47,448 nt of DNA from the IMG/VR virus record IMGVR_UViG_3300036818_000041, positions 1 to 47,448 of that record. One strand, given 5' to 3'. The position numbers and the translations under genes were made by a program. The notes beneath the pieces were generated by a model, which searched no databases, was not told the DNA's origin, and saw only the letters and a list, made by a program, of their open reading frames with translations. This DNA is from a virus. This document shows, piece after piece, positions 4,502-42,555 of the stretch; the first letter of the stretch is position 1, and each line of letters opens with the position of its first letter.

Positions 4502-5233
4502 TTATAGTGAATAGACGCGGTATGATGTAGAATCAATGAGTATAACGGACGGCCAGTCGATCTGGAACATATTTGCATCGATCATGGACACGACGTCGTC
4601 TGGACCAGTCGCAGTCCAGGTTCCATCTCCGTTGTCCGTGATCCGCAACGTTGTATATGACTCAAATATGCTGAGTATAGTCGCTGGATCAGGCAAAGAC
4701 GGATCGTTTTCGTCATTTCCATAAATCAGAGCTTCAAGATCGGCGATCGAACTCGTTTCCGCCTGAGCAACCGGAATTACGAGATGCGAAGTCGCTCTTG
4801 CAGTAGGCACGTCGACCGGAAGTGTGCTTATAGCCCAAGCGAAAGCAACCGGACTTGGGGAATCGCTAAGCGTTGAGTACTGATCACTAGACGGAGCAGC
4901 TGTGACGTTGTACAAGATGTGTATTTCGTTGTTGTCACGGTAACTGAGACCAAACGACGGCCTAGACTGGCCAGTAATGCCCTCAACCACACCGTTGTAC
5001 GGCTCAAACTCGTCAGGATAGGTATACGCTGAGAGAGTTCCATCGAAGACCGAAGGTATGATCTGATTCAGATACTTTTGGCCATCGAAATATAGCGGAG
5101 TTGAGTTATCGTCGCCTTTCTCATCTACAGAAATCAATCCATTCCAGGGTACCCCCGGGGAATTTTCAGGATAGAGAACACCTTGGCTGACGCCTTGGGA
5201 GTAAATCTTGTTTCCATCCCAGGATATGCGCAC
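4502..5233 (-). CDS. Major tail protein paralog 3
   Basis: A 243-residue protein clearly related to the products at 5245-6168 and 6723-7589. Shared blocks are ISWDGNKIYSQGVSQGVLY, the PWNGL-V-EKG block, a Y-DGQKYL segment, F-GTL-AYTYPDEFEP, the FGLSYR block, IHxLYN, and LEALIYGNDENDPSLP. These match the actinophage-type tail tube subunit. The C-terminal part (about residues 190-243, with DNGDGTWTATGPDD) differs from those of the other two copies. GTG at 5233 follows AGGAGG. Role: tail tube, or a tube-tip or decorated variant of it; which of the three copies builds the main tube cannot be told from sequence. Confidence 0.75.
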   Translation of the reverse strand: MRISWDGNKIYSQGVSQGVLYPENSPGVPWNGLISVDEKGDDNSTPLYFDGQKYLNQIIPSVFDGTLSAYTYPDEFEPYNGVVEGITGQSRPSFGLSYRDNNEIHILYNVTAAPSSDQYSTLSDSPSPVAFAWAISTLPVDVPTARATSHLVIPVAQAETSSIADLEALIYGNDENDPSLPDPATILSIFESYTTLRITDNGDGTWTATGPDDVVSMIDANMFQIDWPSVILIDSTSYRVYSL

Positions 5234-5244
5234 GTGTCCTCCTG

Positions 5245-6168
5245 TTAGGTTACAGTTCCGGTTCCAGACAAGCCCATCTTAGGAAGATCGACACTTCCTG
5301 CTGTGATGCACTTCCAGACTTGACCGGTAACTGTGTCGTATCCCCAATCTCCTACAGAAGCTTCCTCTGGGAAGTCCAGATCGCCAGTAAGATCCCACCA
5401 GAAGGCGACATCGTCGGGCGCTTCGTCCGCATATAGATCGCCGTTGCTGAAATCGACACCCATGTCGCCAGCAAGTGCTCCAGCAGGGAAATCAGTAAGA
5501 CCAGTGAGGTCATACCAGACACCGATTGGCGGATTCGTCAGAAGAGTCACAAGTTCGTCTGCTGTAGGCATGCGCGGGTCATTGTCGTCATCTCCGTAGA
5601 GAATATCCTCAAGCCGGGCGATGATGTACGCATTAACGAAACGTGTATCAAATATGAAGTGTGATGTCGGCCTGTATCCTGCTGGACTTTCTGGAAAAGT
5701 CGTAATGTTCCAGGAATATGTCTTAGCTGAAGAAGTATCAGTATTTGTGGAATGCGTGTAGTCCGCAATCTTGGCCATAGCATTGTAGACGACATGCAGT
5801 TTGTAACCAAACGACGTTCCAGCTGAATCATTACCGATCAATGTCCGGTAAGAGAAGTCAAACGTTTCCTTGGGCTGGTCGGCTACGTACAGACCAGTCG
5901 ACAATCGGAGTCTGCCGGCACACGGAGCGAATTCGTTAGGTGCACCGAAGGCTTCGATCGATCCTGCAAAGTCTTCACCCGCCGGAATGTTCAGAATCTT
6001 CCTGCCGTCGAGGTAATACGGCTGAGCATCTCCGCCTTCTGGCGATTCTGTGACGCTTGCAAGACCAGACCACGGAACCGCGACCTCAGAACCGACGTAG
6101 AGCATACCTCGGTCGATTCCTGTGTGATACAGACGCGTTCCCGGGTCGTCCCAGGTAACTTTTGGCAT
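5245..6168 (-). CDS. Major tail protein paralog 2 with repeated C-terminal modules
   Basis: A 307-residue member of the three-gene tail-tube family (VTWDDPGTRLYHTGIDRG at the start, DGRKIL, FAGSIEAFGAPNEFAPC, FDFSYRTLIGND, YKLHVVYN, LEDILYGDDDNDPRMP). Beyond about residue 215 it has an added region made of two similar units, VWYDLTGLTDFPAGALAGD and FWWDLTGDLDFPEEASVGD, each followed by a (V/Y)D-x-(S/T)-x-G-x-(L/V) strand. It ends with one KM module (LPKMGLSGTG), the repeat seen many times in the large adhesin at 14593-18435. Probably a decorated tube subunit. The ATG at 6168 lies just past the end of the chaperone gene. Confidence 0.75.
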   Translation of the reverse strand: MPKVTWDDPGTRLYHTGIDRGMLYVGSEVAVPWSGLASVTESPEGGDAQPYYLDGRKILNIPAGEDFAGSIEAFGAPNEFAPCAGRLRLSTGLYVADQPKETFDFSYRTLIGNDSAGTSFGYKLHVVYNAMAKIADYTHSTNTDTSSAKTYSWNITTFPESPAGYRPTSHFIFDTRFVNAYIIARLEDILYGDDDNDPRMPTADELVTLLTNPPIGVWYDLTGLTDFPAGALAGDMGVDFSNGDLYADEAPDDVAFWWDLTGDLDFPEEASVGDWGYDTVTGQVWKCITAGSVDLPKMGLSGTGTVT

Positions 6169-6722: not shown

Positions 6723-7589
6723 TCAGGAGTGGACGAAGTACCACTCGTCGACGGACGGCTCGCTGAACACGTAGCCTGCTGCCGGCCGGGCGTTCACCAC
6801 AGTGTCGGCAGTGATCGCTGGCTGAGCGCCTGCTTCCACGTCCACGCCAGCGATGCTGTAGATCACGCCAGCGGTCGACGGGATCGTGATGACGTTCGAC
6901 GCGAAGGTCGGGGCCGTCGGAGCCACTGCCGTGACGGTGCCAGAGAACAGCGCGATGACGTCGTCGGGCGACGGAAGCGACGGATCGGTGCCGACGGTGC
7001 CGTAGAGGAGCTCTTCCAGATCGGCGAGAGCGGCAGAATCGACCTTCGACGAGTCGAGAACGATCAGGGCCGTCGGCTGCATACCGGATACGGACACCGG
7101 TGAGCAGTCAAAGTCCCATGAGAACTGCACCGCGGCCGGCGAGTCGTTGATCGTGGCGAAGTCCTTCTCAGACGGCGCCGCAGTGGCTCCGTACACGAGG
7201 TGGATCTTGTAGCCGAGATCCCCACTGACGTCGTTTCCGACTTTGGTGCGGTAGCACAGCCCGAAACTCTGCCGAGTCTGCTGACCCACGACGAGTCCTG
7301 CGACAGGAGCCGCTGTTCCGTCGCAAGCACCGAACTCATCCGGATAGGTGAACGCCTCGAGAGTTCCGGCGAAGGTCTCGGCCGATCGCAGGTCGAGATA
7401 CTTGATGTTGTCCGCGTACTGTGGGTTCGACGCAGCTCCGCCCGGCTTCTCGTTGACCGCAGTCAGCCCATTCCAGGCGAAACCTGCGTCGTAGAGAGAT
7501 GTCGAAGCGTTCAGCGGGTACAGAACGCCGTGGTCGACTCCGGTTTCGTACTTGCGGTTGCCGGTGTCGTCCCAGACAACTTGGGTCAT
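6723..7589 (-). CDS. Major tail protein paralog 1 with C-terminal Ig-like domain
   Basis: A 288-residue tail tube protein. Core blocks: VVWDDTGNRKYETGVDHGVLY, FAWNGLTAVNEKPGG, FAGTLEAFTYPDEFGACDG, QSFGLCYRTKVGND, GYKIHLVYG, LADLEELLYGTVGTDPSLP. From residue 224 an added domain begins PTAPTF, with TIPSTAGVIY and YVFSEPSVDEWYF. It is the same module found at the C-terminus of the capsid fusion protein (8243-10327). It is the first tube gene after the connectors and has the best canonical fit, so I take it as the main tail tube subunit. GC content looks higher here and in the capsid gene than in their neighbours. ATG at 7589 follows GAGGAG. Confidence 0.85.
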   Translation of the reverse strand: MTQVVWDDTGNRKYETGVDHGVLYPLNASTSLYDAGFAWNGLTAVNEKPGGAASNPQYADNIKYLDLRSAETFAGTLEAFTYPDEFGACDGTAAPVAGLVVGQQTRQSFGLCYRTKVGNDVSGDLGYKIHLVYGATAAPSEKDFATINDSPAAVQFSWDFDCSPVSVSGMQPTALIVLDSSKVDSAALADLEELLYGTVGTDPSLPSPDDVIALFSGTVTAVAPTAPTFASNVITIPSTAGVIYSIAGVDVEAGAQPAITADTVVNARPAAGYVFSEPSVDEWYFVHS

Positions 7590-8242: not shown

Positions 8243-10327
8243 TCAGCCGGTACGGGTGAAGATCCAGTCGTCGTCCGCACCGTCGGAGAAGGCGTAAGTG
8301 GAAGCCGCCTTGGCCCTGACATGCACGCTGTCGCCGACGGAGATTGCGGTCTGCGCACCCGCGGTCAGAGCAGAACCCTCGGTTCCGTCGTCGGCCACGT
8401 CCACGTAAGACACGTGAGTCGTGGTCGGGATGGTGACGACACCACTGACTGCGTCGAAGGTCGGAGCAGTCGGGTCGTCCAGCAGCGTGCCGGCACCGGT
8501 GAACTCGGTCACCGTGATCGCGCCCTTGTACTTGGTCATGGCGCCCGACACACGGGTCTCCATGAGGTACTTGAACTGGTTGTAGTCGATGTCGAAGAAG
8601 TCGAACATCGACACCGCGCCGCCCTTGTCGGCACCGACGGTGTAGTCGGTGAGGTTGACGATGATCCCGATCAGCCCGGTCGTTGCCTCGAGGGCCTCGC
8701 ACGGGAAGATGTCGCTGACGCCCATCGCCGCGGCCAGCTCCACCTTGGTCGGGTAGAGACGCCGTCCCAGCGTGTCCTTCGCCAGCAGCATCCTGGACAG
8801 GTACGGCAGGGTGGTGTACATCACCGGGTTGCCGGAGCCGCGGTAGTGCCGCATGCCCATGACGACCGCGTCGACGATGTTGTCGGCGTTGCTCTCGCCT
8901 TCGTTTTCCTCACCGGCGACCCGGAGATCGACTTCGAGGTTGGTGACGTACATCTCGGCGTCACCGTAGATCGGGCGCACGTTTGCCGGGTTGATCTTGT
9001 CGATGTCCGCGATGTCGCGGCCGTCACCGACCAGCACGGCCCTGGCGAGCTCCTCGTCCAGCATGACGCGCATCTCGGTCTGCAGCCAGGTCACCACGTC
9101 GAAGTCGGTGATGTCCAGGATGTCGTCCCGGTCCAGCTTCTGCTTCTTGTAGATGGTCTGCGGAGTCGTGATCCGCCGGGCCACCCCGAAGAACTCCTCG
9201 CGCTTGAGACCCGCCTTGATGTAACCCTTGGCGCGGGCTTCCTCCTGCGTGATGTCCGCGGTCCAGCTGCGGATCCTGGAGAACGGGGTCTTGCGAGTGC
9301 CGGACAGCACACCGGCAACCCATTCCATCCGCCGGCTGATCCACTCCGGCGTGGTGGTGACGGCCTGGTCGTACGGGAACAGTGTGGAGATGTCGTCGAT
9401 GCCGTGCGAGAGCGCGTAGCCCTCGACGGCGTCCCTCAGCGAACCGCCCTTACGGGCCGAGTCGAAGATCTCCTGGATGTCCGAGTGCGACAACGTGGCG
9501 CCTGGGACCTTCTTGTTCTTGTCATCATCGGACTGGTCGAAGACGTTACGGGTCACGTTGACGTCGCCCTTCTGGGAATGGGAGGTGGTGTTGTTGTCGC
9601 CGGACGAAGAACCGCCGGATGAGGAACCGCCGGACGTTGAACCGTTCTGAGCTGCATGGCCGACGAGTGCGTAGACGACCTTCTTCTGCTCAGGAGTGAG
9701 CGTGTTGAGAACGTCCTGAACGGATGCGTCCGGACCCAGCCCACCATCGGCCGGATCGAACAGATCGTTGTCGCCATCGTTGTCGGGATCGGGGTTGCTC
9801 GCCGTTGGCTTGGGCATGTCGCCCTTGGGAGTCCCGACCTGCTTGGGCGGCGAGACGGTCGTGCTTCCGGCGTGCTGAAGTTCTTCGCCGCTGTAGATGA
9901 CGGCTTCGTCCTCGAGCACTCTGACGCCATCGCCATGCGCGATGTTGACGTTCTCGATGAACGCGCCGGGATTCGCACCCGACAGAACAAGACTGACTTC
10001 GCAGATGACGCCATGAACGACGTTCATAGCCTGCTGAACCAGCTTGTTGGCGTAGATCGAAAGCGCGTTGACGTCCTTGGCGTGCACAAGCGCCTTGGCC
10101 TGCTTGCCTGGCTCGGTGGTGTTGAAGAATCCTTCGCCCCACACACCATCGTTTCGGTTGTGCAGGATGACGTGACCTAGGACGTTGTTGGGATCGTCGT
10201 GCTGGTGCTGCCACACGAGCGGGACCTGCTGACCGTCGTTGCCCTTGAAGGCGTGAGCCATGATGACCCGACCGTCGGAGCACTTGATCCCGTTCTTGGT
10301 GACGTACCCTGTGAAGTCAGGTACCAT
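8243..10327 (-). CDS. Prohead protease - major capsid protein fusion
   Basis: A 694-residue polyprotein. Residues 1-140 look like an HK97/S78-type prohead protease: FTGYVTKNGIK, the histidine segment PLVWQHQHDD (His 41/43), VLGHVILHNRNDGVWGEGFF, and the serine segment CEVSLVLSGANPGAFIE (Ser 112). Residues 145-290 are a Pro/Asp/Ser/Gly-rich linker, probably a scaffold or delta region. Residues 290-615 have HK97-fold capsid character (WISRRMEWVAGVL, PFSRIRSWTADITQEEARAKG, WLQTEMRVMLDEELARAVLVGDGR split over two stretches, PVMYTTLPYLSRMLL). Residues 619-694 are an Ig-like module beginning PTAPTF, shared with a tail tube protein. The ATG overlaps the portal gene by 11 nt. Protease and capsid are separate genes in most phages. 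Confidence 0.92.
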   Translation of the reverse strand: MVPDFTGYVTKNGIKCSDGRVIMAHAFKGNDGQQVPLVWQHQHDDPNNVLGHVILHNRNDGVWGEGFFNTTEPGKQAKALVHAKDVNALSIYANKLVQQAMNVVHGVICEVSLVLSGANPGAFIENVNIAHGDGVRVLEDEAVIYSGEELQHAGSTTVSPPKQVGTPKGDMPKPTASNPDPDNDGDNDLFDPADGGLGPDASVQDVLNTLTPEQKKVVYALVGHAAQNGSTSGGSSSGGSSSGDNNTTSHSQKGDVNVTRNVFDQSDDDKNKKVPGATLSHSDIQEIFDSARKGGSLRDAVEGYALSHGIDDISTLFPYDQAVTTTPEWISRRMEWVAGVLSGTRKTPFSRIRSWTADITQEEARAKGYIKAGLKREEFFGVARRITTPQTIYKKQKLDRDDILDITDFDVVTWLQTEMRVMLDEELARAVLVGDGRDIADIDKINPANVRPIYGDAEMYVTNLEVDLRVAGEENEGESNADNIVDAVVMGMRHYRGSGNPVMYTTLPYLSRMLLAKDTLGRRLYPTKVELAAAMGVSDIFPCEALEATTGLIGIIVNLTDYTVGADKGGAVSMFDFFDIDYNQFKYLMETRVSGAMTKYKGAITVTEFTGAGTLLDDPTAPTFDAVSGVVTIPTTTHVSYVDVADDGTEGSALTAGAQTAISVGDSVHVRAKAASTYAFSDGADDDWIFTRTG

Positions 10328-13746: not shown

Positions 13747-14370
13747 TCAGGAGACGTTCTTGATGAGATGCTCAATCCCCTTCGCGGCATACTTACCAGC
13801 GTAGACAGTAGCTTGCTGCTTAGCCACGTCACCGCCAATCTTGAGAACGTCGTTCAGAACCTTCTGACCGGTACTGACGTGCGCCGGGTTCAGCCGACTG
13901 TGCTGACTCTCGAGATTCATCCGCGAAACCAGATGCTGAAGATCGTCGTTGGACAAAGCGTCGACGCCGTGTTTCTTGACTGTCGCTCTGAGCTCGTGCG
14001 TTCTGGCTGAATCAGCCGACACGTGAGATGATCCCGCACTTCCGTCCTTGCGCTGGCCCCACTTCATGCCCTTGACGCCGAAGTGAGCAAGGAACTCTTC
14101 GACAGTCATTTCATGCTTCAGTGTGCCGTCTGGATTCCATGTATCGGGAATCATGTTTGTCAGTTTGAGTGCCCTAGCCCTTTTCATGGCGTGTCGGCGA
14201 ACTGAATTTCTCCGGGCTTCCTCAGACTCATCCCCGTTTGGAGTAGCACGACCGACGGCCTTGATTGCATCACTTAGTTCTGATGCGTTTCTGATGTAGA
14301 ACGATCCGTCGGGCATCGCAACACCAGCCTTTGAGAGGGCCTGGCGCATTGCTGCTGTTGGTTCAGCCAC
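13747..14370 (-). CDS. Virion-associated protein with HFGVKGMKWG motif
   Basis: A 207-residue protein. GTG at 14370 is chosen because GAGGAGGT lies 7 nt upstream; the longer frame reaching 14583 overlaps the next gene and looks like a shadow. The N-terminal half is helical and charged (NASELSDAIKAVGRATPNGD, RRHAMKRARALKLTNMIPD). The middle has EEFLAHFGVKGMKWGQRK, the short HxGVKGMKWG motif that occurs in many Gram-positive-phage head-region proteins. The rest is helical (LSNDDLQHLVSRMNLESQ). The motif is associated with capsid or portal-proximal proteins, but its role is unknown. Placement beside terL and portal fits a head protein. Confidence 0.6.
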   Translation of the reverse strand: MAEPTAAMRQALSKAGVAMPDGSFYIRNASELSDAIKAVGRATPNGDESEEARRNSVRRHAMKRARALKLTNMIPDTWNPDGTLKHEMTVEEFLAHFGVKGMKWGQRKDGSAGSSHVSADSARTHELRATVKKHGVDALSNDDLQHLVSRMNLESQHSRLNPAHVSTGQKVLNDVLKIGGDVAKQQATVYAGKYAAKGIEHLIKNVS

Positions 14371-14592: not shown

Positions 14593-17500
14593 TCAGCTAA
14601 CGGCGACCCACACACCGTTGATCATGACTTTGGGTACAGCGGGTACCCAAACACCGCCCACTCGGGCTTTCACCACCGCATTCAGCCATTCACCATTAAA
14701 ACGAACGGCGACTGGACCTAGCCTGATCGCATGAATCGTCATCTTCGAAAGAGAAACGCCGCCATGACCTATGGCTTTTTCTACAACGGAACCGGTCAGT
14801 GCCATTTTCTTCATGGCAACGCCACCAGTACCGTAATGTCTAGCTGTGCCTGCTCCAGACAAACTCATCTTCTTCAGGGCAACGCCACCAGTACCTTCGT
14901 CACCGGTGAGAATTGTCGGCCCCATGTAATCAGAGTTTGAAAGTCCTACATCGTCCATATAAAGAGTAGCGCTCGCGACTGACAAGGAACTAATTCCGTA
15001 CTGAATCTTGGCTATTGGCCCGGTGGTATTAAAGGTCGCAGCAGATGTCTGAACGTCGTCGGCGATCAGCGAATCAGCAGTGTTGTACTGCTTGAATTCG
15101 ATTTGACCAGCTGTTGGAGAACCTATAACACGGCCCTCTATACGAATCCAGTGACCAACTCTAACCGGAACCACACCAACTATCTGGCCACTACCGGAAG
15201 CGCCGTCATTGAATTGCAGAATGCCTGCAGATGTAACTTGTATTCGTGCACATTGAACGCCGTTTGCGTCCAGAAATTCAACAAAAGCCAGAGTTGATGC
15301 TGGAAGAGCTGGAAGGAACAGATAAGCTCTGAAGAAACCCTCATCCAACGTTCCCTGAAGCTGATCAGACCACGCAAACCAGGCAATTTCTCCTGTAGCG
15401 TCAGTCGTAATCTTGACCGCCAGCGGAGTACGCGCCGGATGATCGTTACTGAACTTGATCGTAGAACCTGCGCCCCGATGAATGTTATCGAAATACGATC
15501 CCGACCCACCGAGCAGCGAATTCCTGACGTAGTTCAGCCCAGCAATGAGACTGTAGCCGATTCCACCTGATTGAGTGCCTGGAAGCAAGTTCCACTCAGG
15601 ATAGTTTGTGCCTGAGTACCAGACCGCACCGCCGTTAGGCTTTCCGGCGATCTTCCGGCCCGCAAACAAGTTACCTATGTACTGATGCCAAGTTTGCCAT
15701 TGAGCCACAGTCAGCGGACTAGCTACGCCTTGCTGATCTGCACCCCATTCGAACACCCAGAAAGGAACCGGGCCATGCACGGTATTATTATCAGCGAGAT
15801 CCGTGATGCTGACCGTAGCCATACCGTTCGGCTGGTCCAGATACCAAGGATCAGAGTTGATGAGAAGGTTTCCGTAAGCGTCTGCACCTACAAACCAGAC
15901 GTGCTGATCGCCAGGATAGAACTGCTGATAGTTTCCGCCAGTTCCGTGGTTGGTAGCAACGTCGTAACCGACGGCAAGACCACTATCGGCCGGAATTGTT
16001 GTCACATACGCAGTAGGATTCTCTACAACCTGCGCGTAATAGTTGTACCAGGATATGAAAGCATTTGCTGACGCCTGGCCAGGGTTAGCTTTGCCCGCGC
16101 CTGATACATCAAACGACCCGTTGCCGTTCGCTTCCGAGTTCAGCACACAGATCGGCTCTGGAGCACCCTTGGAAGCCGCATACGTCTTGAGCGAGTAGAT
16201 CGTACTCGCAAGATTATGCCGATCAGCAACAGACTTCTGAGGTGGAGATGCTGAAGAGCCCGGTTTGATACAGAAGACGATCTTAGTGCCCTTGTCGATC
16301 AGGTCAGTAAGATCGTTCGGAATCGCTGACTGCGTAGTGTAATAGTTATCATCACCTACGAACCACTTCTGTACTGTAAGCGCCGGAGAACCATCCAGGC
16401 CACTGACCTTACTAGGGTACGAATGTCCACCCGCGGTAACGTCTACACCGTCAGCGTAATTGGCGGTCTGAAGCCGGGTAAAGTTGGGATTCGTTCCAGT
16501 CAGATCCTGGACGTTTAGGTTGTAACCCTTCTGCTGCGCTGTGTGACCAGCCAGACCAGTAGAACCAGACCCACCACCGCCAGTATTGCCGTCAGCACCT
16601 TGAGTGAGATCGAGCCCATCCGCACCACCTTCGAATGTATTGACAAGAGACACACCAGCACTGGCAGTTGCTGATTCTGAGCCGATGCCTGTCAGCTTCA
16701 TCTTCTTCAAGATGACGCCGCCAGTACCAGAAACCTTCTGAAGCTCTATCCCGGAGCCAGACAAACTCATCTTCTTCAGAGTAATGCCGCCGATAGCTGC
16801 GACAGTCTCTGTTCCAGCAGCAGACAAGCCCAGTTTGTGCAGTATAACGCCACCGGAACCAGCGTTTATCTGCATACTCGTGCCCGCAAGGCTCATCTTG
16901 TGTATGTCGACACTGCCGGTACCCGAAACAGATCCAGGTTCGGTTCCAGTACCAGACAAACTCATCTTCTTCAGAGCAATACTTCCAGTACCGGCATCTT
17001 TCTCTGAACCAGCAGAAGACAAGCTCATCTTCTTCAGGTTAACGCCGCCACTACCAGTGAGAATCGTGGGGCCCATGTATGCTGAGTCGGAAAGACCCAG
17101 ATCATCAAGAAAGAGCGTCAAACTAGGCACTGCAAGAACGATGACGCCGTATTTAACGGCGGCGATAGGCCCTTGAGTGTTGAATGTTGTCGCTGAAGTT
17201 TGCGTTTCGGTAGGCGTGAGTGAATCGGCCGTGTTGAACAGCTTCATTTCCAGCTGTCCTACAGTTGCCGATCCAGTAACGAATCCTTCTACGCGAATCC
17301 AGTGACCTGTTCCGATTGACGCCGTAGTGGCTATCTGATTTCCGGATCCAGAAGCCGCATGGAAGCTTAGAGTTCCATCGGTTTCTATCTGAAGCCTGGC
17401 GCATCGAGTACCAGACGCATCGTCGAACTCCGCCACGACAAGTTCAGAAGAAGGAAACGCAGTCAGGTAAATATAGATCCGGAACCAGAGCTTGCCTACT

Positions 17501-18435
17501 GTTCCGCCGCCTAGTTGCGCATTCCAGCCTATATACGCCGTTTCGCCAGTGGCGTCTGTTGTGAATTTGACACCTTTTGGATTACGTTGCGGATGACTGT
17601 TACTAAAAACTATCGCAGCGCCTGAATCGATACTGACTGTATCGAAATATGATCCTGAAGTACCGCCTGTGTTGCCGCCAGAACCCTGCGTGAGAGTTGC
17701 ATTATTAGTGCCACCCTCAAACGTGTTAGTAAGAACAAGACCCGCCGATCCAGTGTCCTCTATCGAACCAGAACCAGAAAGCCCCATCTTGTGCATGCCA
17801 ATACTGCCGGTACCCGAGTCGGGAACTCTAGCAATATAAACGACAGCCTGTCCGCCGCTCCCAGAAGCCAGCGAACTCGCAAGGACCCAGTTCAGTCCCA
17901 TTGAATCCGACATTGCTGGAGCCAAATTGAACATTCCAGAAACTAGAGCCACCAGAAGCGATCCAATTGGTGGAGTAAATGCTGCAGTAGTAGCTGCTGC
18001 ACTAGTAGTTACCGTCGTTAGTGCTGGACTACTCGCATCCTCGGCTATAACATTAACACCGTCGGATTTCACTTCGAATAGCGAGATACCACCGATAGTT
18101 CGCGTGTTTGTATAACCGATGTTCGCTGCACCAAGACTGGCTGTATCCGCAGCCGACTTGCACGTCGCGTAACGACCACCGTTCGTCGCATCTGTGACGT
18201 TGTCGATCGCAGTAGTACTTGCATTGACAGCAAATCCTGAAGAACTGCTGTTAAGAGCTGCTCCATAAATACGACTGCCTATTTCGGTAGTCGTAATCGA
18301 GAGATGCTCGGCAGAACTTGTGTTACCGGCCGCGCCGTCCTGAATTGCAGCGACGTTTGTCAGAACTTTAACCCGAAGGTTGATCCCGTTCGCAAGTTTA
18401 CTTGCGGTGGCGTCTGCCGTAACGGTCATGGACAT
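14593..18435 (-). CDS. Large modular virion adhesin with duplicated jelly-roll and glycosidase-like insert
   Basis: A 1280-residue surface protein. Residues 1-205 are beta-rich. Residues 232-460 form a LamG/carbohydrate-binding-type jelly roll (NTFEGG, FTTDATGETAYIGW, RCARLQIETDGTLSF, GHWIRVEG, LFLDDLGLSD, YMGPTILTG). Seven KM modules (LKKMSLSGTG-like, about 19-22 residues each) lie at 216 and 469-578. A second jelly roll starts at 597 (VNTFEGG), is interrupted at about 621-976, and resumes at GGSGSYFDNIHRG to YMGPTILTG (1177). The insert resembles a TIM-barrel glycoside hydrolase: CVLNSEANG (Glu 768) and FWVFEWGAD (Glu 896) would be acid/base and nucleophile. Three more KM modules and a Trp-rich tail (NGVWVAVS) end it. 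Likely binds and perhaps trims host surface glycans. Confidence 0.75.
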   Translation of the reverse strand: MSMTVTADATASKLANGINLRVKVLTNVAAIQDGAAGNTSSAEHLSITTTEIGSRIYGAALNSSSSGFAVNASTTAIDNVTDATNGGRYATCKSAADTASLGAANIGYTNTRTIGGISLFEVKSDGVNVIAEDASSPALTTVTTSAAATTAAFTPPIGSLLVALVSGMFNLAPAMSDSMGLNWVLASSLASGSGGQAVVYIARVPDSGTGSIGMHKMGLSGSGSIEDTGSAGLVLTNTFEGGTNNATLTQGSGGNTGGTSGSYFDTVSIDSGAAIVFSNSHPQRNPKGVKFTTDATGETAYIGWNAQLGGGTVGKLWFRIYIYLTAFPSSELVVAEFDDASGTRCARLQIETDGTLSFHAASGSGNQIATTASIGTGHWIRVEGFVTGSATVGQLEMKLFNTADSLTPTETQTSATTFNTQGPIAAVKYGVIVLAVPSLTLFLDDLGLSDSAYMGPTILTGSGGVNLKKMSLSSAGSEKDAGTGSIALKKMSLSGTGTEPGSVSGTGSVDIHKMSLAGTSMQINAGSGGVILHKLGLSAAGTETVAAIGGITLKKMSLSGSGIELQKVSGTGGVILKKMKLTGIGSESATASAGVSLVNTFEGGADGLDLTQGADGNTGGGGSGSTGLAGHTAQQKGYNLNVQDLTGTNPNFTRLQTANYADGVDVTAGGHSYPSKVSGLDGSPALTVQKWFVGDDNYYTTQSAIPNDLTDLIDKGTKIVFCIKPGSSASPPQKSVADRHNLASTIYSLKTYAASKGAPEPICVLNSEANGNGSFDVSGAGKANPGQASANAFISWYNYYAQVVENPTAYVTTIPADSGLAVGYDVATNHGTGGNYQQFYPGDQHVWFVGADAYGNLLINSDPWYLDQPNGMATVSITDLADNNTVHGPVPFWVFEWGADQQGVASPLTVAQWQTWHQYIGNLFAGRKIAGKPNGGAVWYSGTNYPEWNLLPGTQSGGIGYSLIAGLNYVRNSLLGGSGSYFDNIHRGAGSTIKFSNDHPARTPLAVKITTDATGEIAWFAWSDQLQGTLDEGFFRAYLFLPALPASTLAFVEFLDANGVQCARIQVTSAGILQFNDGASGSGQIVGVVPVRVGHWIRIEGRVIGSPTAGQIEFKQYNTADSLIADDVQTSAATFNTTGPIAKIQYGISSLSVASATLYMDDVGLSNSDYMGPTILTGDEGTGGVALKKMSLSGAGTARHYGTGGVAMKKMALTGSVVEKAIGHGGVSLSKMTIHAIRLGPVAVRFNGEWLNAVVKARVGGVWVPAVPKVMINGVWVAVS

Positions 18436-18915: not shown

Positions 18916-19803
18916 TCAGAGTGGTGAGAATACGAACAATGAAGAATCTTGTTCGACTTGTATATTTCGGCCATGAATGCCCATCTTTGGTAGCTGAACA
19001 CCACCTGCGCCTGAGATTTTGAGCTGGCCTGAACCAGTAACACTCATCTTCGAAAGTTGTGCACTTCCTGAGCCTGGAATTTTGAGCTGGCCTGAACCAG
19101 TAACACTCATCTTCGAAAGTTGTGCACTTCCTGAGCCTGGAATTTTGAGCTGGCCTGAACCAGTAACACTCATCTTCGAAAGTTGTGCACTGCCAGTACC
19201 AGAATCAGCGACATCGTCAGATGGCCCAACAAGTACGTCCAACCAGAAGTTTGATGAATGACCGCCATTATCGTCCAACGTTGGATAATGCGCTGTTGGA
19301 TCTTCGCCTGACGTATCGTATGTTTCCTGAACAGTGCCATTAGGCTCGGGATTCGTGCCGTCGTTTGCTGAAATCGTTGAGAAAATCGTCAAAGGCCCGT
19401 TAACGATACCGTTGACGTAAGGATCACCACCGCGGAATTGGAAAGCCGTATCGTTAAAGTTTCCCATAATTCCAAGAACCGCTTTGTAACTTGTCTCAGA
19501 AGTAAGAGCCAGTGGTGTGGGCAACGCCACGTAATTCCACTCACCAACGATCATATCGCTGATCGACACATCCGAATCCGTTATCACAGTGCCTGTTGTA
19601 GCACCGGTAATTTCCCACAATGCGAAATCGGCAGTTGCCGGTTGACCAGAATCCGATCTCCAGCAAGAATATCCATACAAGAACTGATCGTCTTCTGTGA
19701 CTTTGAAAGCCATCCCCATGACGATAGGACCGGTGTAAGATACAGACGATTCCGGACCTGTAACTGCGTTTCCATCGACACCGAAGGCGCTATATTGATT
19801 CAT
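18916..19803 (-). CDS. Virion protein with KM modules (tandem-repeat C-terminus)
   Basis: A 295-residue protein; ATG at 19803 (MNQYSAFGVDGNAV) is chosen over a start 13 codons upstream inside the previous gene. Residues 1-210 look like a beta-sandwich domain, with VMGMAFKVTEDDQFLYGYSC, CWRSDSGQPATADFALWEI and SETSYKAVLGIMG; this resembles domains of the DUF4082 type. The C-terminus has three near-identical 21-residue units (AQLSKMSVTGSGQLKIPGSG), encoded by a 63-bp tandem repeat, and one divergent module (LPKMGIHGRN). It precedes the 144- and 1280-residue surface proteins and shares the KM module with the latter. Confidence 0.65.
   Translation of the reverse strand: MNQYSAFGVDGNAVTGPESSVSYTGPIVMGMAFKVTEDDQFLYGYSCWRSDSGQPATADFALWEITGATTGTVITDSDVSISDMIVGEWNYVALPTPLALTSETSYKAVLGIMGNFNDTAFQFRGGDPYVNGIVNGPLTIFSTISANDGTNPEPNGTVQETYDTSGEDPTAHYPTLDDNGGHSSNFWLDVLVGPSDDVADSGTGSAQLSKMSVTGSGQLKIPGSGSAQLSKMSVTGSGQLKIPGSGSAQLSKMSVTGSGQLKISGAGGVQLPKMGIHGRNIQVEQDSSLFVFSPL
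19021..19195 (-). repeat. 63-bp tandem repeat, about 2.8 copies
   Basis: Units start at 19021, 19084 and 19147 on the plus strand with a period of 63 nt. The first two are virtually identical over the full unit; the third is identical for its first 40-odd bases and then diverges. Each encodes one 21-residue KM module of the protein at 18916-19803. The low divergence suggests recent expansion. Confidence 0.9.
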
Positions 19804-19811
19804 TGGTGTCC

Positions 19812-20513
19812 TCAGAAGCCGGGTGTATAACCGGCGTACCAATCGGTTGCCGATAGACGGAAGACCGCGCTGATGATGTCAGTCTTTCCTGCAGAGGAAA
19901 GATCTGGTTCTCCAGCATCGCCGAAGTTCCAGCCATTGCCCCAGGTAACCGTATGATCGTTCGCCGTCAGCTCCAACGTGATGTGCTGACCATCGACACC
20001 ACTAATTGGCGCATCGATTGTGCAATCGCTAGTCAGCGTCAGATAGAACACGTTTCCAGCCATTGCGTCTGGCGTAATCACAGAAGCAAATTCCAATTCC
20101 ACGACCATCGGCTTATAGACTGGCGTATCCGTAGTCTCATCTCCGAATGGATCGCTTGGTGGATTCAATTGCTCAGCTACGACGTTGATTTGCCAAATAT
20201 GCTGAGCAGCCATGTTCTTGAGTGCGTCGATTCCGAACGAAGTTCCTGGCGGATCGAACGAAAGCCGGACAAACGCAAATATGTATGCCTTGATGAGGTT
20301 CAGCAAGGTAGCGTTTGAGACATAATTCGACCAGAGCGTTGTGTTATCACTGATCGAGAAACCGGAATCCGAGCCAACGCCAGCCATCTGGAGAGACCCG
20401 AATGCTCCGTTGATGAAGAGCGTAATATCGAGATCGAACGCTTCGTAGTCCGGGTCAAAACCGAGAGTCTTCTTGACCGAATCAAGAATGCTGTCGGGAT
20501 TTGCTGTGCTCAT
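19812..20513 (-). CDS. Head-tail connector-like protein with C-terminal fibre-type domain
   Basis: A 233-residue protein. The N-terminal 125 residues resemble the gp6-like head-tail connector family: ILDSVKKTLGFDPDYEAFDL, DITLFINGAFGSLQMAGVG, FSISDNTTLW, LLNLIKAYIFAFVRLSFDPP, then helices with QHIWQINVVAEQ. Residues 135-233 are a beta-rich add-on (NVFYLTLTSDCTIDAPISG, QHITLELTANDHTVTWGNGW, AVFRLSATDWYAGYTPGF) of the kind found at the ends of phage fibres. The connector call rests on the N-terminal pattern; the fibre-like extension suggests an exposed position on the neck. Confidence 0.6.
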   Translation of the reverse strand: MSTANPDSILDSVKKTLGFDPDYEAFDLDITLFINGAFGSLQMAGVGSDSGFSISDNTTLWSNYVSNATLLNLIKAYIFAFVRLSFDPPGTSFGIDALKNMAAQHIWQINVVAEQLNPPSDPFGDETTDTPVYKPMVVELEFASVITPDAMAGNVFYLTLTSDCTIDAPISGVDGQHITLELTANDHTVTWGNGWNFGDAGEPDLSSAGKTDIISAVFRLSATDWYAGYTPGF

Positions 20514-22225: not shown

Positions 22226-22376
22226 TTCTAAGTGCCTCATGAGGAGGCGCCGGAACATCCCTGTACCATCCGGAGAGGCCGGAAGACGGCCGAAACCAAT
22301 CGAACGAGGCTCAGGGGGCATACCTCGCGCGGTTCCGAAGGGGTAATCACGACGCCCCCGCAAGAGGCACTTAGAA
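22226..22376 (-). ncRNA. Candidate structured RNA, closed by a 13-bp stem
   Basis: The gap between tad2 and the small terminase candidate contains a perfect 13-bp inverted repeat (22226-22238 with 22364-22376, TTCTAAGTGCCTC on the minus strand). Within it three further stems can pair: 22250-22254 with 22269-22273, 22277-22281 with 22287-22291, and 22314-22319 with 22354-22359 (GGGGGC/GCCCCC). This would make a four-way-junction RNA of about 151 nt. It is GC-rich, and the only open frame through it (22211-22396) is unconvincing. A T-run follows the closing stem (minus strand, about 22217-22222), so part of it may act as a terminator. I do not recognise a known RNA family. Confidence 0.6.
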
Positions 22377-22793: not shown

Positions 22794-23060
22794 TTATAAC
22801 GCTGCTTCTGGAGGTCGAACTGCTTTCCTGTACAAACCGCTAACATTCAAAATGCAAATTTCGTCGATTGCGTCTTCGATCGACTGTTCGACGTCGTCAT
22901 CCGACAAGTCCAAACTAACATTTGCAATTCGAGCGAGCAGTCCAGGTGTGTCGTACCCTTGGCTCTGGTCGTAGGTCCACCACTCATCGTAGTTAGTGAA
23001 AGGATTCCAAGGGTTGTCGACAGTAGTCAGCATGTGTTCGACAGAGTCGTCAGCCATCAT
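22794..23060 (-). CDS. Conserved small acidic protein next to the RNA-polymerase-like gene
   Basis: An 88-residue acidic protein: MLTTVDNPWNPFTNYDEWW at residues 10-28, then DTPGLLARIANVSLDLSDDD, a helix IEDAIDEICILN and a basic end GLYRKAVRPP. I recall the TTVDNPxxPFTxxDEW / LLARIAxxSxDLS pattern from many Gram-positive phages, in which it follows the DFDGD protein and precedes terminase genes, but I do not know a function. It starts 5 nt after the end of the 882-residue gene, so the two are surely co-translated. Confidence 0.7.
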   Translation of the reverse strand: MMADDSVEHMLTTVDNPWNPFTNYDEWWTYDQSQGYDTPGLLARIANVSLDLSDDDVEQSIEDAIDEICILNVSGLYRKAVRPPEAAL

Positions 23061-23065
23061 CCTCC

Positions 23066-25714
23066 CTAACGGTGAAGAGCAGTGTTGAGTGTACTGACTG
23101 GTATGCCTAGTGAGTCAGCGATCTCTGCCTGTGTGTAGCCTGATGCTAGCCTAGCCTTAGCTATAGCCAGCTTAGACGCAGTCATTACAGTAGCTGCTCT
23201 CGGTGTGGCTAGCTTACGTACACGATCAGCATCTGCATTCTCAAGGATCTGACTAAGCTTACTGCCACTGATTGCGCCCTGTTGGATCGCCTTCCATTCG
23301 CTATCTGTTATCTCTACTTGATTCTTCTTAGCACCTACCCGATCACGGGCGGCGGTGAGTGCTTGGCCCTTGACCTTCTTAAGATCGGCGGCATCCATAC
23401 CGGGATTATCCTGGCGCTTGGCCGTGACTACTGCATTAGCAATCAGTTGTGCTTGACGTTCGAGTGGCTTGTTCTTAAGGGCAAGGTTAAGCTTGGCATT
23501 GAGTGATGCCACCTCTGAGTGGTACGTCCGCTTAGCAGTAGGTGAGTACCGCATGCTGCCCGTTGAGAAGGCGGACTTGCGTGCACTGTTAGCCAGGGTC
23601 TTCATTGCATTCGAGTGGTCTGCATAGATGTTCTCTATGGGCATACCACTAGACAATGACCTGGCGTCCTTGGCCTCTGCTAGCTTAGTGGATGATGAGG
23701 TACGGACAATCGTTCTGCCCTTGGCATCCTTGAATGACTCACCTGTTTCTTCATAGACTTTCTCACCTGTCGCTGGGTTAATAGCGCCACCCTTTGATGC
23801 AGGCCTTAGTCTACGTTCTGGAACCCTGATCTCTGAACTGGCTCTTGATACGATGGTAGATGCACCAGCAAGACGGCCAGTAGAACCGCGACCCTGATAC
23901 TTCTCTTTCAGTGAAGCAATTCCGTTGTCGAGATAAGACTGCTTATAGTTCAGGTTGTGTTTCTCAGCATCAATCACAACCATTGAATGACGAACTGCTC
24001 GAGCAAGCTCGTCAGGCTTAGCGCCCTTAATCGACATATCAGTGATCAGGTTTGAAACATCACCCATCTGTTGCTGCTTAGCGCGAGAGGTGATCGTCTT
24101 CATTCCTGTATGAGCAGGATACATCTCTTTGGGATCGAAGTCTTTCAGGCCACTCAATGGTGCAGAGGTCTTAACTTCTCTCTTGTTGTTCGGGATGACG
24201 AGAACTGTGTCGCCATCAAAGTCGGCACCTGACAAACGTTCAGCAATCTTGGGATGAATGCCAATGGCGTCGATAGCATTGCCGAGTGCTGCCCTTGATT
24301 CGGCATGCTTGTTGTTTACTGTAGCTTCAGGTATCTCGAAAGGCCCACCATGAGGGAAGCGAACTAGCGCGACCTTTTCACCATTACGGTAATTAGGCGC
24401 GTAGACTTCCCCTTCTTTCAAGGTCTCGATAGGAAGGATGACATGCGTTCCTTGCCGAGGAAGTGCTGCTGCCTTGAGATGCACTGAAGCTGAGTCAGCG
24501 CTATCTGCGAACTTCTCAAGCAAAGCTTTCTTTACGACAGGGTTGGTGAGACGCATGATCTCATTAAGCTCATCCTTGCGTGAAGCCAACGCAAGATCGA
24601 GCTGTCGCTTAGCCAGAGCAGTGCTCTGCTTCGACAAGACCTGACTAGACAGACTGCGAGACCAGTCTTTCCAGTCGCCTTCTTCGTTCACGATGTTCAT
24701 TGGCGAAAGCTTGCGCTTACCTGAGGAATCCAGGTAATGCCTTTGACGAACAGTAGAACCGAAAGGATTGTCTTCGTCCTTCTGTACTTTCATGACATCA
24801 AGCTTATTGCCTGTGTCGTGTTTGTTCGTGTTGAACAGCAGATCTACCCCATGAGGCAGATCGTTCTTGTACATCGCCATGCCTTTGAGGTAGTGTGTTC
24901 CATCGACGGCGATGCGTACTTGTGCGTACCGAGCTGAACCCAGCGAAATGTCTTTCACACCAGGACGCACATAGATGACCCCATCTGCTTTGGTTCCACC
25001 TTGTTCGGCGTAACGAATACCAATGCGGCTGGAGTCAACGTTTCGAGGCGGCTCTATACCTAGATAGGTATGACCGCCGTCTTCACTGTACGCAGCGATC
25101 GATTTGATCTTGGTTGGATTCTTGACGATGTCGACGTACTTGGTTCCGGGCGGAGCAAGAACCTTGATGGTCGTCTTCTTGCCCGTGCCTAGTTGAGCGA
25201 CCTGAACGTTGTGTAGTTCATAGCCTTCTTCACGGAGCACAGCAGCCGCAGTCGAAAGCCTTGTATTGGTAATGCCGAGATGATTCTCGGTGCCTGCACC
25301 AATGTCCAGATAACCGTCTTTGCCTATCTTGTCTCGAAGAAGGTTCGACGTAGTGATCAGAATGTCTTTCTTGTCTGCCTGAGATGGATCAAGCAATGCA
25401 CGAACTGTTGATTCGTTGACCTTCATACGCTGACCGATAGCCGTGTTCGACATGCCTTTTGCCTTAAGCCTCACGGCTTGGGCAGCATCGGCGGCACGAG
25501 TTTCGTTCTTGGCAATTGCACGAGCAGCTCTGAGTGCAGTTGTCGTTGTCCCAAAGCCTGCTGCTATCTGAATCTCAGACAGACCTTTGGCTTTGAGACT
25601 TTCGACATAACTCAGAAAGCCACGACTTTGTTCGACACTTTCACCAGAACCCCACGGATAGCGGCCAGATCGGCGAAGAACTCCGTAGTGAAACAGTTCA
25701 GCTGTACCGACCAC
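23066..25714 (-). CDS. Candidate single-chain DPBB RNA polymerase (DFDGD motif)
   Basis: An 882-residue protein. The sequence RLSGADFDGDTVLVIPN puts a DFDGD motif at residues 498-502, the metal-binding signature of the beta-prime double-psi beta-barrel (NADFDGD in cellular RNAP) and of YonO, crAss-like and QDE-1 single-chain enzymes. Upstream, VRFPHGGPFEIPEATVNNKH (451-470) fits the strand set before the catalytic loop, and DGTHYLKGMAMYKNDLPHG (271-289) contains a Lys-Gly that could belong to the second barrel. Helix-turn-helix-like segments lie at about 43-68 and 87-108 and at the C-terminus (YTQAEIADSLGIPVSTLN). The N-terminal LFHYGVLRRSGRYPWGSGE motif is common in phage proteins. It could transcribe phage genes, or make RNA on ssDNA or RNA templates. 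Activity is inferred from motifs only. Confidence 0.65.
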   Translation of the reverse strand: MVGTAELFHYGVLRRSGRYPWGSGESVEQSRGFLSYVESLKAKGLSEIQIAAGFGTTTTALRAARAIAKNETRAADAAQAVRLKAKGMSNTAIGQRMKVNESTVRALLDPSQADKKDILITTSNLLRDKIGKDGYLDIGAGTENHLGITNTRLSTAAAVLREEGYELHNVQVAQLGTGKKTTIKVLAPPGTKYVDIVKNPTKIKSIAAYSEDGGHTYLGIEPPRNVDSSRIGIRYAEQGGTKADGVIYVRPGVKDISLGSARYAQVRIAVDGTHYLKGMAMYKNDLPHGVDLLFNTNKHDTGNKLDVMKVQKDEDNPFGSTVRQRHYLDSSGKRKLSPMNIVNEEGDWKDWSRSLSSQVLSKQSTALAKRQLDLALASRKDELNEIMRLTNPVVKKALLEKFADSADSASVHLKAAALPRQGTHVILPIETLKEGEVYAPNYRNGEKVALVRFPHGGPFEIPEATVNNKHAESRAALGNAIDAIGIHPKIAERLSGADFDGDTVLVIPNNKREVKTSAPLSGLKDFDPKEMYPAHTGMKTITSRAKQQQMGDVSNLITDMSIKGAKPDELARAVRHSMVVIDAEKHNLNYKQSYLDNGIASLKEKYQGRGSTGRLAGASTIVSRASSEIRVPERRLRPASKGGAINPATGEKVYEETGESFKDAKGRTIVRTSSSTKLAEAKDARSLSSGMPIENIYADHSNAMKTLANSARKSAFSTGSMRYSPTAKRTYHSEVASLNAKLNLALKNKPLERQAQLIANAVVTAKRQDNPGMDAADLKKVKGQALTAARDRVGAKKNQVEITDSEWKAIQQGAISGSKLSQILENADADRVRKLATPRAATVMTASKLAIAKARLASGYTQAEIADSLGIPVSTLNTALHR

Positions 25715-26269
25715 TTATCCACCCACCTTAAGATTCTCGATGAATTGATCGAACACGATGATCTTGCTCATGATGTGAGCGATGTCGTTGATGTCTGGCT
25801 CGATGATCACAACTTCGTCATTTTGGTAGATGCGAAGCTCAATACCAATCTCACCAGGCTTGTGTGCATACTCGAGACAGAACAACGCTGCGTAGATCTC
25901 GAGCTGATGCATCGATCCGTTGATGATGCCAGTCTTCAAGTCATGAACACGCAAGTGATTTCTCGAGAAAGAAATAGCATCAGCTGTCCCATAACAATTT
26001 GGCGAATAGAACAGAATTTGCTCAGTCATCATACGGAAACCGATTGCGTCGTTCACGTACATGTTCAGCGTCTTGCTGGAACGCGGCAACTTGATGCCGA
26101 GTCTGATGGCGTTGTGCGCAAAGGCGTGAAGCTCGGTGCCTCTCCTAGCTGCCTGTGCGTTGGTGTACGCTTCTGTCAGTTTCTCGGTGTCGTAGTTTAT
26201 CCAGTGATACTTGCTGGCGCTGAGAAAAGCGTGCTGGCCCACGAGATCGAAGTGCGAGTTGAAGTTCAT
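25715..26269 (-). CDS. Cas4/RecB-like PD-(D/E)XK exonuclease
   Basis: A 184-residue nuclease candidate. Near the N-terminus HAFLSASKYHWINYD and an RGTELHAFAHNAIRLG helix (with the conserved His), then YGTADAISFSRNHLRVHDLK gives the catalytic Asp and the D-x-K motif (VHDLKTG), followed by HQLEIYAALFCLEY, the QLxxYA motif of RecB/Cas4-type enzymes. Such phage nucleases process DNA ends in recombination or replication. The gene starts 125 nt inside the end of the previous nuclease ORF and ends 1 nt before the RNA-polymerase-like gene. No Cys cluster for an iron-sulfur centre is evident. Confidence 0.75.
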   Translation of the reverse strand: MNFNSHFDLVGQHAFLSASKYHWINYDTEKLTEAYTNAQAARRGTELHAFAHNAIRLGIKLPRSSKTLNMYVNDAIGFRMMTEQILFYSPNCYGTADAISFSRNHLRVHDLKTGIINGSMHQLEIYAALFCLEYAHKPGEIGIELRIYQNDEVVIIEPDINDIAHIMSKIIVFDQFIENLKVGG

Positions 26270-26537
26270 GCAAGACGTCTCTCTCGTTAGTGGGATTAAT
26301 GAAAGCCGCGAAAGACATGGCGTCCATCAAATCCACGTAGTACCCCTGATTTGGCTGAGTCCTTGATCTAGATCCGGCCTTGCATTCGAGAGCAGCCCAC
26401 GTTTCTCGCCAGAGGATCAGCAAGTCGGGAATGCCCTGAAGATAGTTCGCATCTCCTTTGACGATGAGACACCCGGGAAACATCTTCCGGAGTTTGCGGA
26501 TTAGCTCACGCTGGAATTTGCTCTCGATCTGATTCAC
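26145..26537 (-). CDS. VRR-NUC-like PD-(D/E)XK endonuclease
   Basis: A 130-residue frame whose first about 97 residues match a small phage nuclease: ESKFQRELIRKLRKMFPGC, VKGDANYLQGIPDLLILW (catalytic Asp in GIPD), and ALECKAGSR (E-x-K), then QPNQGYYVDLMDAMSFAAF. This order is that of VRR-NUC or Holliday-junction-resolvase-like enzymes. The last 32 residues overlap the next gene by 125 nt and look non-conserved, so the ancestral stop may have been lost. The start is uncertain: the GTG at 26537 directly abuts AAGGAG, so initiation may occur a few codons later, possibly at a rare codon. First gene after the promoter at 26732-26757. Confidence 0.7.
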   Translation of the reverse strand: MNQIESKFQRELIRKLRKMFPGCLIVKGDANYLQGIPDLLILWRETWAALECKAGSRSRTQPNQGYYVDLMDAMSFAAFINPTNERDVLHELQLALRSRGPARFSQRQQVSLDKLRHRETDRSVHQRTGS

Positions 26538-26731
26538 CTCCTTGAATGGTGGTCTGGACCGCCTCTAGCACCCCAATACTGGAGACGGTCCAGACGACAA
26601 ACGTGATGAGCTCTCTATCGCTTCCCTCGCACTAGGCTTATGTCAGAGCATTGCGCATCACCTGCCTCACGAAAGACAAGAGGACGTGTACTAATCTGGC
26701 AACGATTAGCATGCGTTCTCTACTTCCTTCT

Positions 26732-26757
26732 ATTATAGGCCATGTTTTTTTCGCGAG
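26732..26757 (-). promoter_or_regulatory. Promoter-like element A
   Basis: Minus strand: TATAAT (26732-26737) preceded by exactly 18 nt beginning CGCGAA. The same block with identical spacing occurs at 42085-42111 and 42530-42555, and with TATAAC at 40847-40872. Shared bases are CGCGAA, two A/T-rich positions, AC at block positions 11-12, then a G/C pair before the -10. It would drive the nuclease and RNA-polymerase-like operon, with a leader of about 190 nt. Confidence 0.7.
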
Positions 26758-40815: not shown

Positions 40816-41088
40816 TTATGGTGATGCTTTCGGCGCATCGGCCTTCGTTATAGGCCCAGTAATTTTCGCGAGGTCGTTACGAAGCCTGGCCACCTGATCC
40901 TTGGGCATCTCCTTTCCGGTGTACTTGAAGTAGTACTTCTCGGTCTGCTTGGCCACGATGTACGGCCAGATGAGCCAGAACAGGAAACCTCCCAGCTTCG
41001 GGAACAGTCTCCTGATCCAGCTAGAACTTCCCGTAGTCCTTCCGCGGAAGGCTCTTGTAGCCGATTGCGAGGCAAGGGCGGCCGTCAT
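40816..41088 (-). CDS. Small membrane protein (start uncertain)
   Basis: A frame of 90 residues from ATG 41088, overlapping the DUF6353 gene by 68 nt. The convincing part begins at WIRRLFPKLGGFLFWLIWPY (about residues 25-44), a basic-aromatic membrane segment, followed by VAKQTEKYYFKYTGKEMPKD and ARLRNDLAKITG. Just after the preceding stop there is AGGAGA but no ATG/GTG/TTG follows at the right distance, so a rare start codon or the overlapping ATG must be used. The coding sequence contains promoter-like element D. Probably partners the adjacent DUF6353 membrane protein. Confidence 0.55.
   Translation of the reverse strand: MTAALASQSATRAFRGRTTGSSSWIRRLFPKLGGFLFWLIWPYIVAKQTEKYYFKYTGKEMPKDQVARLRNDLAKITGPITKADAPKASP
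40847..40872 (-). promoter_or_regulatory. Promoter-like element D (weak, intragenic)
   Basis: Minus strand CGCGAA followed by 12 nt and TATAAC (18 nt from CGCG to the -10), matching elements A-C except for the last base of the -10. It lies inside the end of the 90-residue gene. Part of the match could be chance from coding sequence. Confidence 0.4.
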
Positions 41089-42046: not shown

Positions 42047-42084
42047 GATGGCCTCTCCTTCAAAAACACGGTTTGTGGGGTTTC

Positions 42085-42111
42085 ATTATAGCCCTTGTAA
42101 TTTTCGCGAGG
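42085..42111 (-). promoter_or_regulatory. Promoter-like element B
   Basis: Minus strand TATAAT (42085-42090) with CGCGAA 18 nt upstream. A TTGCCT overlapping the upstream edge could serve as a conventional -35. It lies between a terminator-like hairpin and the first early gene. Confidence 0.75.
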
Positions 42112-42506: not shown

Positions 42507-42529
42507 GTCGTTCCTTTCATAGACTCTCT

Positions 42530-42555
42530 ATTATACGACGTGTTTTATTCGCGAA
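42530..42555 (-). promoter_or_regulatory. Promoter-like element C
   Basis: Minus strand TATAAT (42530-42535) with CGCGAA beginning 18 nt upstream, as in elements A and B. It lies between the holin gene and the 100-residue gene; the element reaches the edge of the holin gene's stop. Confidence 0.75.

Follow-up and report, generated by a model that had tools for sequence, protein, structure and literature searches.

A predicted single-chain two-barrel RNA polymerase and an associated early promoter-like motif in phages of Actinobacteria and Firmicutes

The viral record IMGVR_UViG_3300036818_000041, analysed here over its whole length of 47,448 nt (the window), encodes an 882-aa product whose predicted fold supports its placement among the single-chain two-barrel RNA polymerases, outside the YonO family. 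The protein is probably a DNA-dependent early RNA polymerase that would act at a phage-specific promoter, including the one before its own operon, and that is perhaps carried in the virion. While the class of enzyme is known, the pairing of enzyme and promoter across two phyla appears to be new.

An initial annotation of the window, made from its letters alone, had described an 882-residue reading frame containing a DFDGD motif. The frame exists exactly as given and lies on the minus strand, running from a GTG start at 25714 to 23066 (882 codons); the plus strand over the same interval is full of stops. Residues 5–881 match positions 10–906 of 909 in the profile phrog_4291 (1303 bits). By tblastn, the polymerase occurs in 250 of 50,697 phage records, with hosts that include Arthrobacter (95), Gordonia (55), Streptomyces (54), Lactococcus (13), Curtobacterium (7) and Microbacterium (4), as well as Rhodococcus, Faecalibacterium and others. 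At least 520 loci were confirmed in a scan of IMG/VR, and a scan of bacterial and archaeal genomes returned 138, many of them in Lachnospiraceae and Oscillospiraceae. The family is already noticed and named at the annotation level in PHROGs, where, as in RefSeq, the label is "RNA-dependent RNA polymerase"; most deposited labels read "helix-turn-helix" or "hypothetical". No account of the family's activity, promoter or virion content was found in the searchable literature, a body that excludes the supplements of PMC10770324, which may cover the family among 23.

The DFDGD loop lies within LSGADFDGD (residues 494–502) and, together with S495-G496-A497, Q265-V266-R267 and K277-G278-M279-A280, is invariant in an alignment of 94 sequences. 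Lys277 falls in HYLKGMAMY, the segment that had been suggested to supply the lysine-bearing barrel. This choice of lysine proves correct by the QVR...KG motif, which gp64 of Thermus phage P23-45 shares (reading QVR...WKG where the polymerase reads QVR...LKG) and which corresponds to the invariant Q736 and K743 of QDE-1 (PMC1750930). Judged from the alignment, the aspartate triad of barrel 2 and the basic residue of barrel 1 that characterize the superfamily are both in place. Pfam also recovers the HTH-like segments that had been noted at both ends, as HTH_23 at residues 73–107 and as Sigma70_r4_2/HTH-type matches at 851–882.

Sequence searches of the PDB, with the single sequence or with a profile, matched no polymerase, so that the link to known polymerases is by fold only. 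The structure prediction recommended with the initial annotation gave an AlphaFold2 model, built from the 94-sequence alignment, with a mean pLDDT of 81 and a pTM of 0.67. Foldseek matched this model over nearly the whole chain, at a probability of 1.00, to QDE-1 (6e-9), gp62 of phage P74-26 (1.4e-7) and gp64 of P23-45 (1.7e-7); RDR2 of maize (3e-7, probability 1.00) and of Arabidopsis (1e-5) were also matched. The only confident PDB matches were single-chain two-barrel polymerases, with cellular beta' subunits next at 2e-3. Among BFVD models, P23-45 and other phage polymerases were matched and crAss-like matches were weak. The TM-scores are modest (0.24–0.32 by query length, rmsd 12–24 A), indicating that the common part is the catalytic core and that the placement of domains differs. 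A profile alignment by hhalign paired the DFDGD barrel with the DYDGD barrel of gp64 (E 0.0017), the QVR strand of barrel 1 forming a weaker second alignment. Against a 34-sequence alignment of the YonO family the hhalign probability was 1.3% and only an R-x-P-H motif aligned; by sequence, the polymerase is thus nearer to gp64 than to YonO. The class first proposed for the protein stands through QDE-1 and gp64, by Foldseek and by motifs, and the likeness to YonO in sequence falls away. Positions of these and other features are collected in Table 1, where the barrel boundaries are taken from predicted secondary structure.

Table 1. Features of the polymerase gene, its neighbours and the associated motif, in window coordinates
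Feature	Position	Strand	Evidence
Single-chain two-barrel RNA polymerase gene (predicted class), 882 aa (phrog_4291)	23066..25714	-	Full-length profile E=0, AF2, Foldseek
N-terminal tag, residues 7-25 (LFHYGVLRRSGRYPWGSGE), conserved, predicted disordered	25640..25696	-	R18, P20, G22 invariant; pLDDT 30-38
N-terminal HTH, residues 73-107	25394..25498	-	Pfam HTH_23, 7.4e-10 whole protein; helices in AF2 model
Probable barrel 1, lysine-bearing, residues 231-345	24680..25024	-	AF2 strands; 244-268 against gp64 111-135; approximate limits
Lys277 codon, QVR...KG motif (Q265, K277)	24884..24886	-	Alignment; gp64 QVRMFSRRGNEIFRAWKG; QDE-1 Q736, K743 (PMC1750930)
Probable barrel 2, aspartate-bearing, residues 421-512	24179..24454	-	AF2 strands; hhalign to gp64 257-336, E=0.0017; approximate limits
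Catalytic loop D498-F-D500-G-D502	24209..24223	-	Translation, alignment
C-terminal HTH, sigma-70 region 4-like by Pfam, residues 846-882	23069..23179	-	Pfam; AF2 helices
VRR-Nuc-like endonuclease, first identified gene of polymerase operon	26145..26537	-	phrog_93
Cas4/RecB-like exonuclease, abuts polymerase start	25715..26269	-	phrog_3953
88-aa conserved gene after polymerase	22794..23060	-	phrog_4303
Promoter-like motif before endonuclease-exonuclease-polymerase operon (CTCGCGAAAAAAACATGGCCTATAATAGAAGGAAGT)	26722..26757	-	Score 45.4; best shuffle 6.0
Promoter-like motif, early region	42520..42555	-	Matrix scan
Promoter-like motif, early region (CTCGCGAAAATTACAAGGGCTATAATGA)	42075..42110	-	Repeat search, scan
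Promoter-like motif, early region, weaker -10 TATAAC	40837..40872	-	Repeat search, matrix scan
DUF7211 tag (HFGVKGMKWGQR) in gene adjoining terminase	14041..14106	-	Pfam

A repeat search found identical ends of 127 bp at 1–127 and 47322–47448, by which the contig looks complete and circularly assembled, with a genome of about 47.3 kb. The gene order is collinear with that of Streptomyces phage RosaAsantewaa and is common to Arthrobacter phage Mudcat. Lysis genes and small early genes are followed by a fused primase-DNA polymerase, an annealing protein and a helicase. Next come the VRR-Nuc endonuclease, the Cas4-like exonuclease, the polymerase and the 88-aa gene, and then a late block with the terminase, the portal, the protease-capsid fusion and the tail genes. 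As regards nucleases and packaging genes, the surroundings are as first described, with the two nucleases directly upstream in one operon and the terminase, portal and capsid genes downstream. In relatives with linear genomes, the polymerase takes the last place but one and the phrog_4303 gene the last. The terminases of the closest relatives are 82–84% identical and their polymerases 55–60%. As the initial annotation had also reported, neither a T7-like polymerase nor a sigma factor was matched in the record: a profile search for T7-type RNAP (PF00940) found none, although this is a weak test in which the control was also silent everywhere, a Pfam scan of the 882-aa polymerase gave no PF00940 match, and sigma-70 region 2 was absent from the record by profile search.

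The late block has several features of its own. The protease and major capsid protein form one fused chain (8243–10327, minus strand), annotated likewise in RosaAsantewaa, and three paralogues that have an N-terminal pattern in common (4502–5233, 5245–6168 and 6723–7589, minus strand) occupy the place of the relatives' two major tail proteins. Within putative fibre genes, repeats of 63 nt at 14593–18435 and 18916–19842 (minus strand) translate into recurrent GTGGVxLxKMSLSGxG units, and a related unit closes the paralogue at 5245–6168. The first late gene is preceded, a short way upstream, by a 150-nt hairpin with a long stem (22226–22376, minus strand; MFE -80 kcal/mol, z -6.2), for which an Rfam search gave no match. 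Nine relatives carry dissimilar sequences with similar long closing stems (106–197 nt), 34–172 nt upstream of the same gene. The hairpin is perhaps a packaging or end structure, a structured RNA or an element of late-gene control.

Outside the late block, the window carries a repeated promoter-like motif. The repeat search returned three copies of CTCGCGAAAA-N10-TATAAT, one with a TATAAC end, at 42110, 40872 and 26757, all pointing along the direction of the genes, and a fourth copy lies at 42555. In 76 of the upstream regions tested, an iterated matrix placed a similar site about 0.9–1.0 kb ahead of the polymerase. For further scans a 28-nt core took the place of the 36-nt site, whose downstream AGAAGG is peculiar to the copy at the polymerase operon; the core, YTCGC-R-NN-A-WWW-ACA-N5-TATARTGA, was built from 94 sites and can be summarized as CGC-(A-rich)-ACA-N5-TNTNAT-RA. 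Another type of promoter that was considered, an N4-like hairpin with an inverted repeat around the -10, was rejected, as pairing was no better than in permuted halves (p 0.07–0.44).

The motif is concentrated in early regions. Across 20 orientable genomes, early sequence (452 kb) held 138 sites of the 28-nt core and late sequence (427 kb) a single one, with two antisense sites in all and none in 932 kb of Markov shuffles. Because these genomes include those used to train the matrix, the test is the early/late contrast and the strand bias and not the raw count. The two antisense copies (30955 in genome G001 and 52440 in genome G006, both on the plus strand) are found close to the end of the genome, next to a gene of opposite orientation, an arrangement in which the motif may travel with inserted early-type genes.

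Sets independent of training show the same association. Among 80 polymerase loci from bacterial genomes, mostly Firmicutes, 72 have the motif upstream (site score of at least 12, at -908 to -1278, median -960), compared with 0 of 400 shuffles. Lactococcus phage P078, from a host group absent from training and with a polymerase of 37% identity, has the form TTTTACATACCCTATAATGA, and its TTTTACATRCCCTATAATGA-type sites fall almost only in the early half. In Faecalibacterium phage FP_oengus (45%), also outside the training set, the form ACGCGAAAAAWACA-N-TTTATG occurs at least 13 times, for the most part in the early region, with one copy directly before the hypothetical-cas4-polymerase genes. Among 2.9 million IMG/VR contigs, the consensus occurs in at least 120 stretches, many with 2–7 copies, and a reversed control pattern in 15 stretches with one match each. 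When 50 motif-bearing contigs were chosen from the listed loci, mainly for length, 36 matched phrog_4291 (one match being short, weak and partial), and no contig above 50 kb lacked a match. Eight of the 14 negative contigs carry the group's own DNA polymerase, phrog_4210, and are probably incomplete members of the group. Of course, motif and polymerase are of common ancestry, so co-occurrence does not by itself prove recognition.

The reader of the motif is nevertheless likely to be the polymerase itself and not some other factor, since this enzyme is the sole RNAP found in the genome, bears HTHs at both ends and has a motif that diverges in step with it. One other way to explain the motif is that host RNAP reads it as an early promoter, with TATAAT as the -10 and the upstream blocks serving an activator, while the phage polymerase acts later, on late genes, as YonO does (PMC5467207). 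The actinophage sites do contain a perfect TATAAT, on which host RNAP might act, and the polymerase gene lies between replication and late genes, much as yonO lies near exonuclease and terminase genes in SPbeta. However, no -35 hexamer occurs at 16–18 nt from the -10, scans for sigma-70-like promoters gave neither early nor late regions above shuffles, and visual inspection of the sequence ahead of the first late gene revealed no common late motif. Moreover, the -10 is the part that changes: in 64 distinct sites from bacterial genomes it reads TTTTAT in 40, TATAAT in 11 and TGTTAT in 7, and in FP_oengus TTTATG, whereas CGC, the A-rich stretch and ACA are nearly invariant and position 27 onward is nearly all purine. 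The A at -11 is the key base for host sigma. It is present at the second -10 position in 15 of the 64 sites and absent from 49, and its loss while the upstream blocks are kept argues for a phage-encoded enzyme or factor as the reader. The motif also keeps one spacing throughout the host phyla, a constancy that resembles, by analogy, promoters of single-polypeptide phage polymerases. Reading by host RNAP is, on balance, unlikely.

A second explanation would have a separate phage DNA-binding protein recognize the motif and recruit a polymerase, of phage or host, the phage enzyme on its own lacking sequence specificity. Candidates for such a protein could be sought among the many early genes of unknown function or the small HTH proteins of relatives (such as Mudcat gp42), and whether YonO needs extra factors was left open in its description (PMC5467207); a polymerase with HTHs of its own at both ends makes the arrangement quite improbable. 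As for an RNA-dependent RNA polymerase or a primer or repair enzyme, the role implied by the PHROG and RefSeq label, a Pfam RdRP match at residues 489–589 (E 0.0027, below cut-off), the RNA-copying QDE-1 and RDR2 among the nearest folds and the two adjacent nucleases could be cited in its favour, but the about equal Foldseek match to gp64, a phage DNA-dependent RNAP, the DNA-binding HTHs, the tight association with a promoter-like DNA motif and the phage's possession of its own primase-polymerase make it very improbable, and a purely RNA-copying or primer role finds little support past the database label.

A polymerase that reads its own promoter would depend on some enzyme being present at the outset, unless leaky transcription by host RNAP supplied it. 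In the crAss-like phage phi14:2, the gp66 protein transcribes early genes from the virion. A hint of virion delivery for the present polymerase comes from its N-terminus. Here the pattern LxHYGxxRxSGRYPWGSG (residues 7–25) is among the most conserved stretches of the protein, is present in 251 phage records and is recognizable in 70 of 80 bacterial-genome polymerase loci; it also lies in the part of the model with the lowest confidence, a combination that would suit a tag for binding. In the same phages, proteins of the structural module, several per phage and some annotated as acetyltransferase, bear HFGVKGMKWGxR (Pfam DUF7211), at about 930 places in 244 phage records. The record counts of DUF7211-tagged proteins equal those of the polymerase in each actinobacterial genus (Arthrobacter 95, Gordonia 55, Streptomyces 54, Curtobacterium 7, Microbacterium 4). 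A profile alignment of the two tags over about 12 columns scored 27.7, with 40 column-shuffled controls at or below 14.1, although the score is inflated because both sets were selected by patterns containing H-x-G. DUF7211 itself does not match the polymerase in a Pfam scan, and the searchable literature yielded no paper on the GMKWG tag. With DUF7211 lacking a known function, virion delivery stays hypothetical, an idea of somewhat less than even probability.

Taken together, these features suggest how the system could operate. Barrel 1 would contribute Gln265 and Lys277 and barrel 2 the Mg-binding Asp498, Asp500 and Asp502, with the two HTHs as candidate DNA-reading parts. The enzyme would read a phage-specific promoter made up of CGC, an A-rich stretch, ACA, 5 nt, T-N-T-N-A-T and a purine-rich start; this promoter, standing before early genes and before the polymerase's own operon, could set up a self-amplifying early circuit. 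The first enzyme might enter with the virion by means of the conserved tag, and the late genes, which lack the motif, could be transcribed by host RNAP, or else be reached by transcription that starts at the promoter of the polymerase operon and continues over the joined genome ends. The earlier suggestion of a phage-owned transcription enzyme thus gains support from fold, motifs and placement, with the genome evidence pointing to early and not late genes. In its fullest form, the proposal is that phages and prophages of Actinobacteria and Firmicutes package the polymerase into the head by a DUF7211-related tag, inject it and start early transcription from their own 28-nt promoters, that of the polymerase operon included, without host RNAP or sigma; this whole chain is offered only tentatively.

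Single-chain two-barrel polymerases are a candidate ancestral form of all cellular RNAPs, and only a handful have been studied. Phages with phrog_4291 have been sequenced by the hundreds and are easily grown on Arthrobacter, Streptomyces, Gordonia and Lactococcus, yet the protein is mostly annotated as an HTH protein. The clear consensus of the predicted promoter makes the enzyme, the promoter and the self-start directly testable, and the pair could yield a compact orthogonal tool for transcription in high-GC bacteria.

Known phage enzymes of this kind are YonO, gp64 and gp96 of P23-45, and gp66 of phi14:2 (PMC5467207, PMC10770324). Of these, gp64 is nearer by sequence than YonO. Like gp62 of P74-26, it is a non-virion RNAP of a single chain with two barrels, and crystal structures exist for this pair of Thermus phage enzymes (8F72, 8F5M). 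The gp64 protein has been shown to be an RNA polymerase and serves early phage genes (PMC10770324). Both D-[FY]-D-G-D and QVR...KG align with the polymerase described here, with Foldseek values of about 1e-7; however, gp64 has 616 aa against 882, overall sequence similarity is very low, the alignment spans the barrels and leaves the long N- and C-terminal HTH regions outside, and the GC-rich promoters of gp64 (PMC10770324) are unlike the 28-nt motif. QDE-1 and RDR2, the former giving the best Foldseek match of all, have similar catalytic residues (Q, K and DxDGD), but are cellular proteins that act in RNA silencing and share 11–13% identity with the polymerase. The gp66 protein is likewise a single-chain two-barrel enzyme by its description (PMC10770324), from which its likeness to the present polymerase is drawn. 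Finally, YonO of SPbeta is also a single-chain phage enzyme of similar size, with its gene by an exonuclease and just before the late genes, but its loop reads FDNDGD in place of DFDGD. Its promoter was unknown at the time of its description and it serves late genes (PMC5467207), whereas the motif that accompanies the phrog_4291 polymerase sits early.
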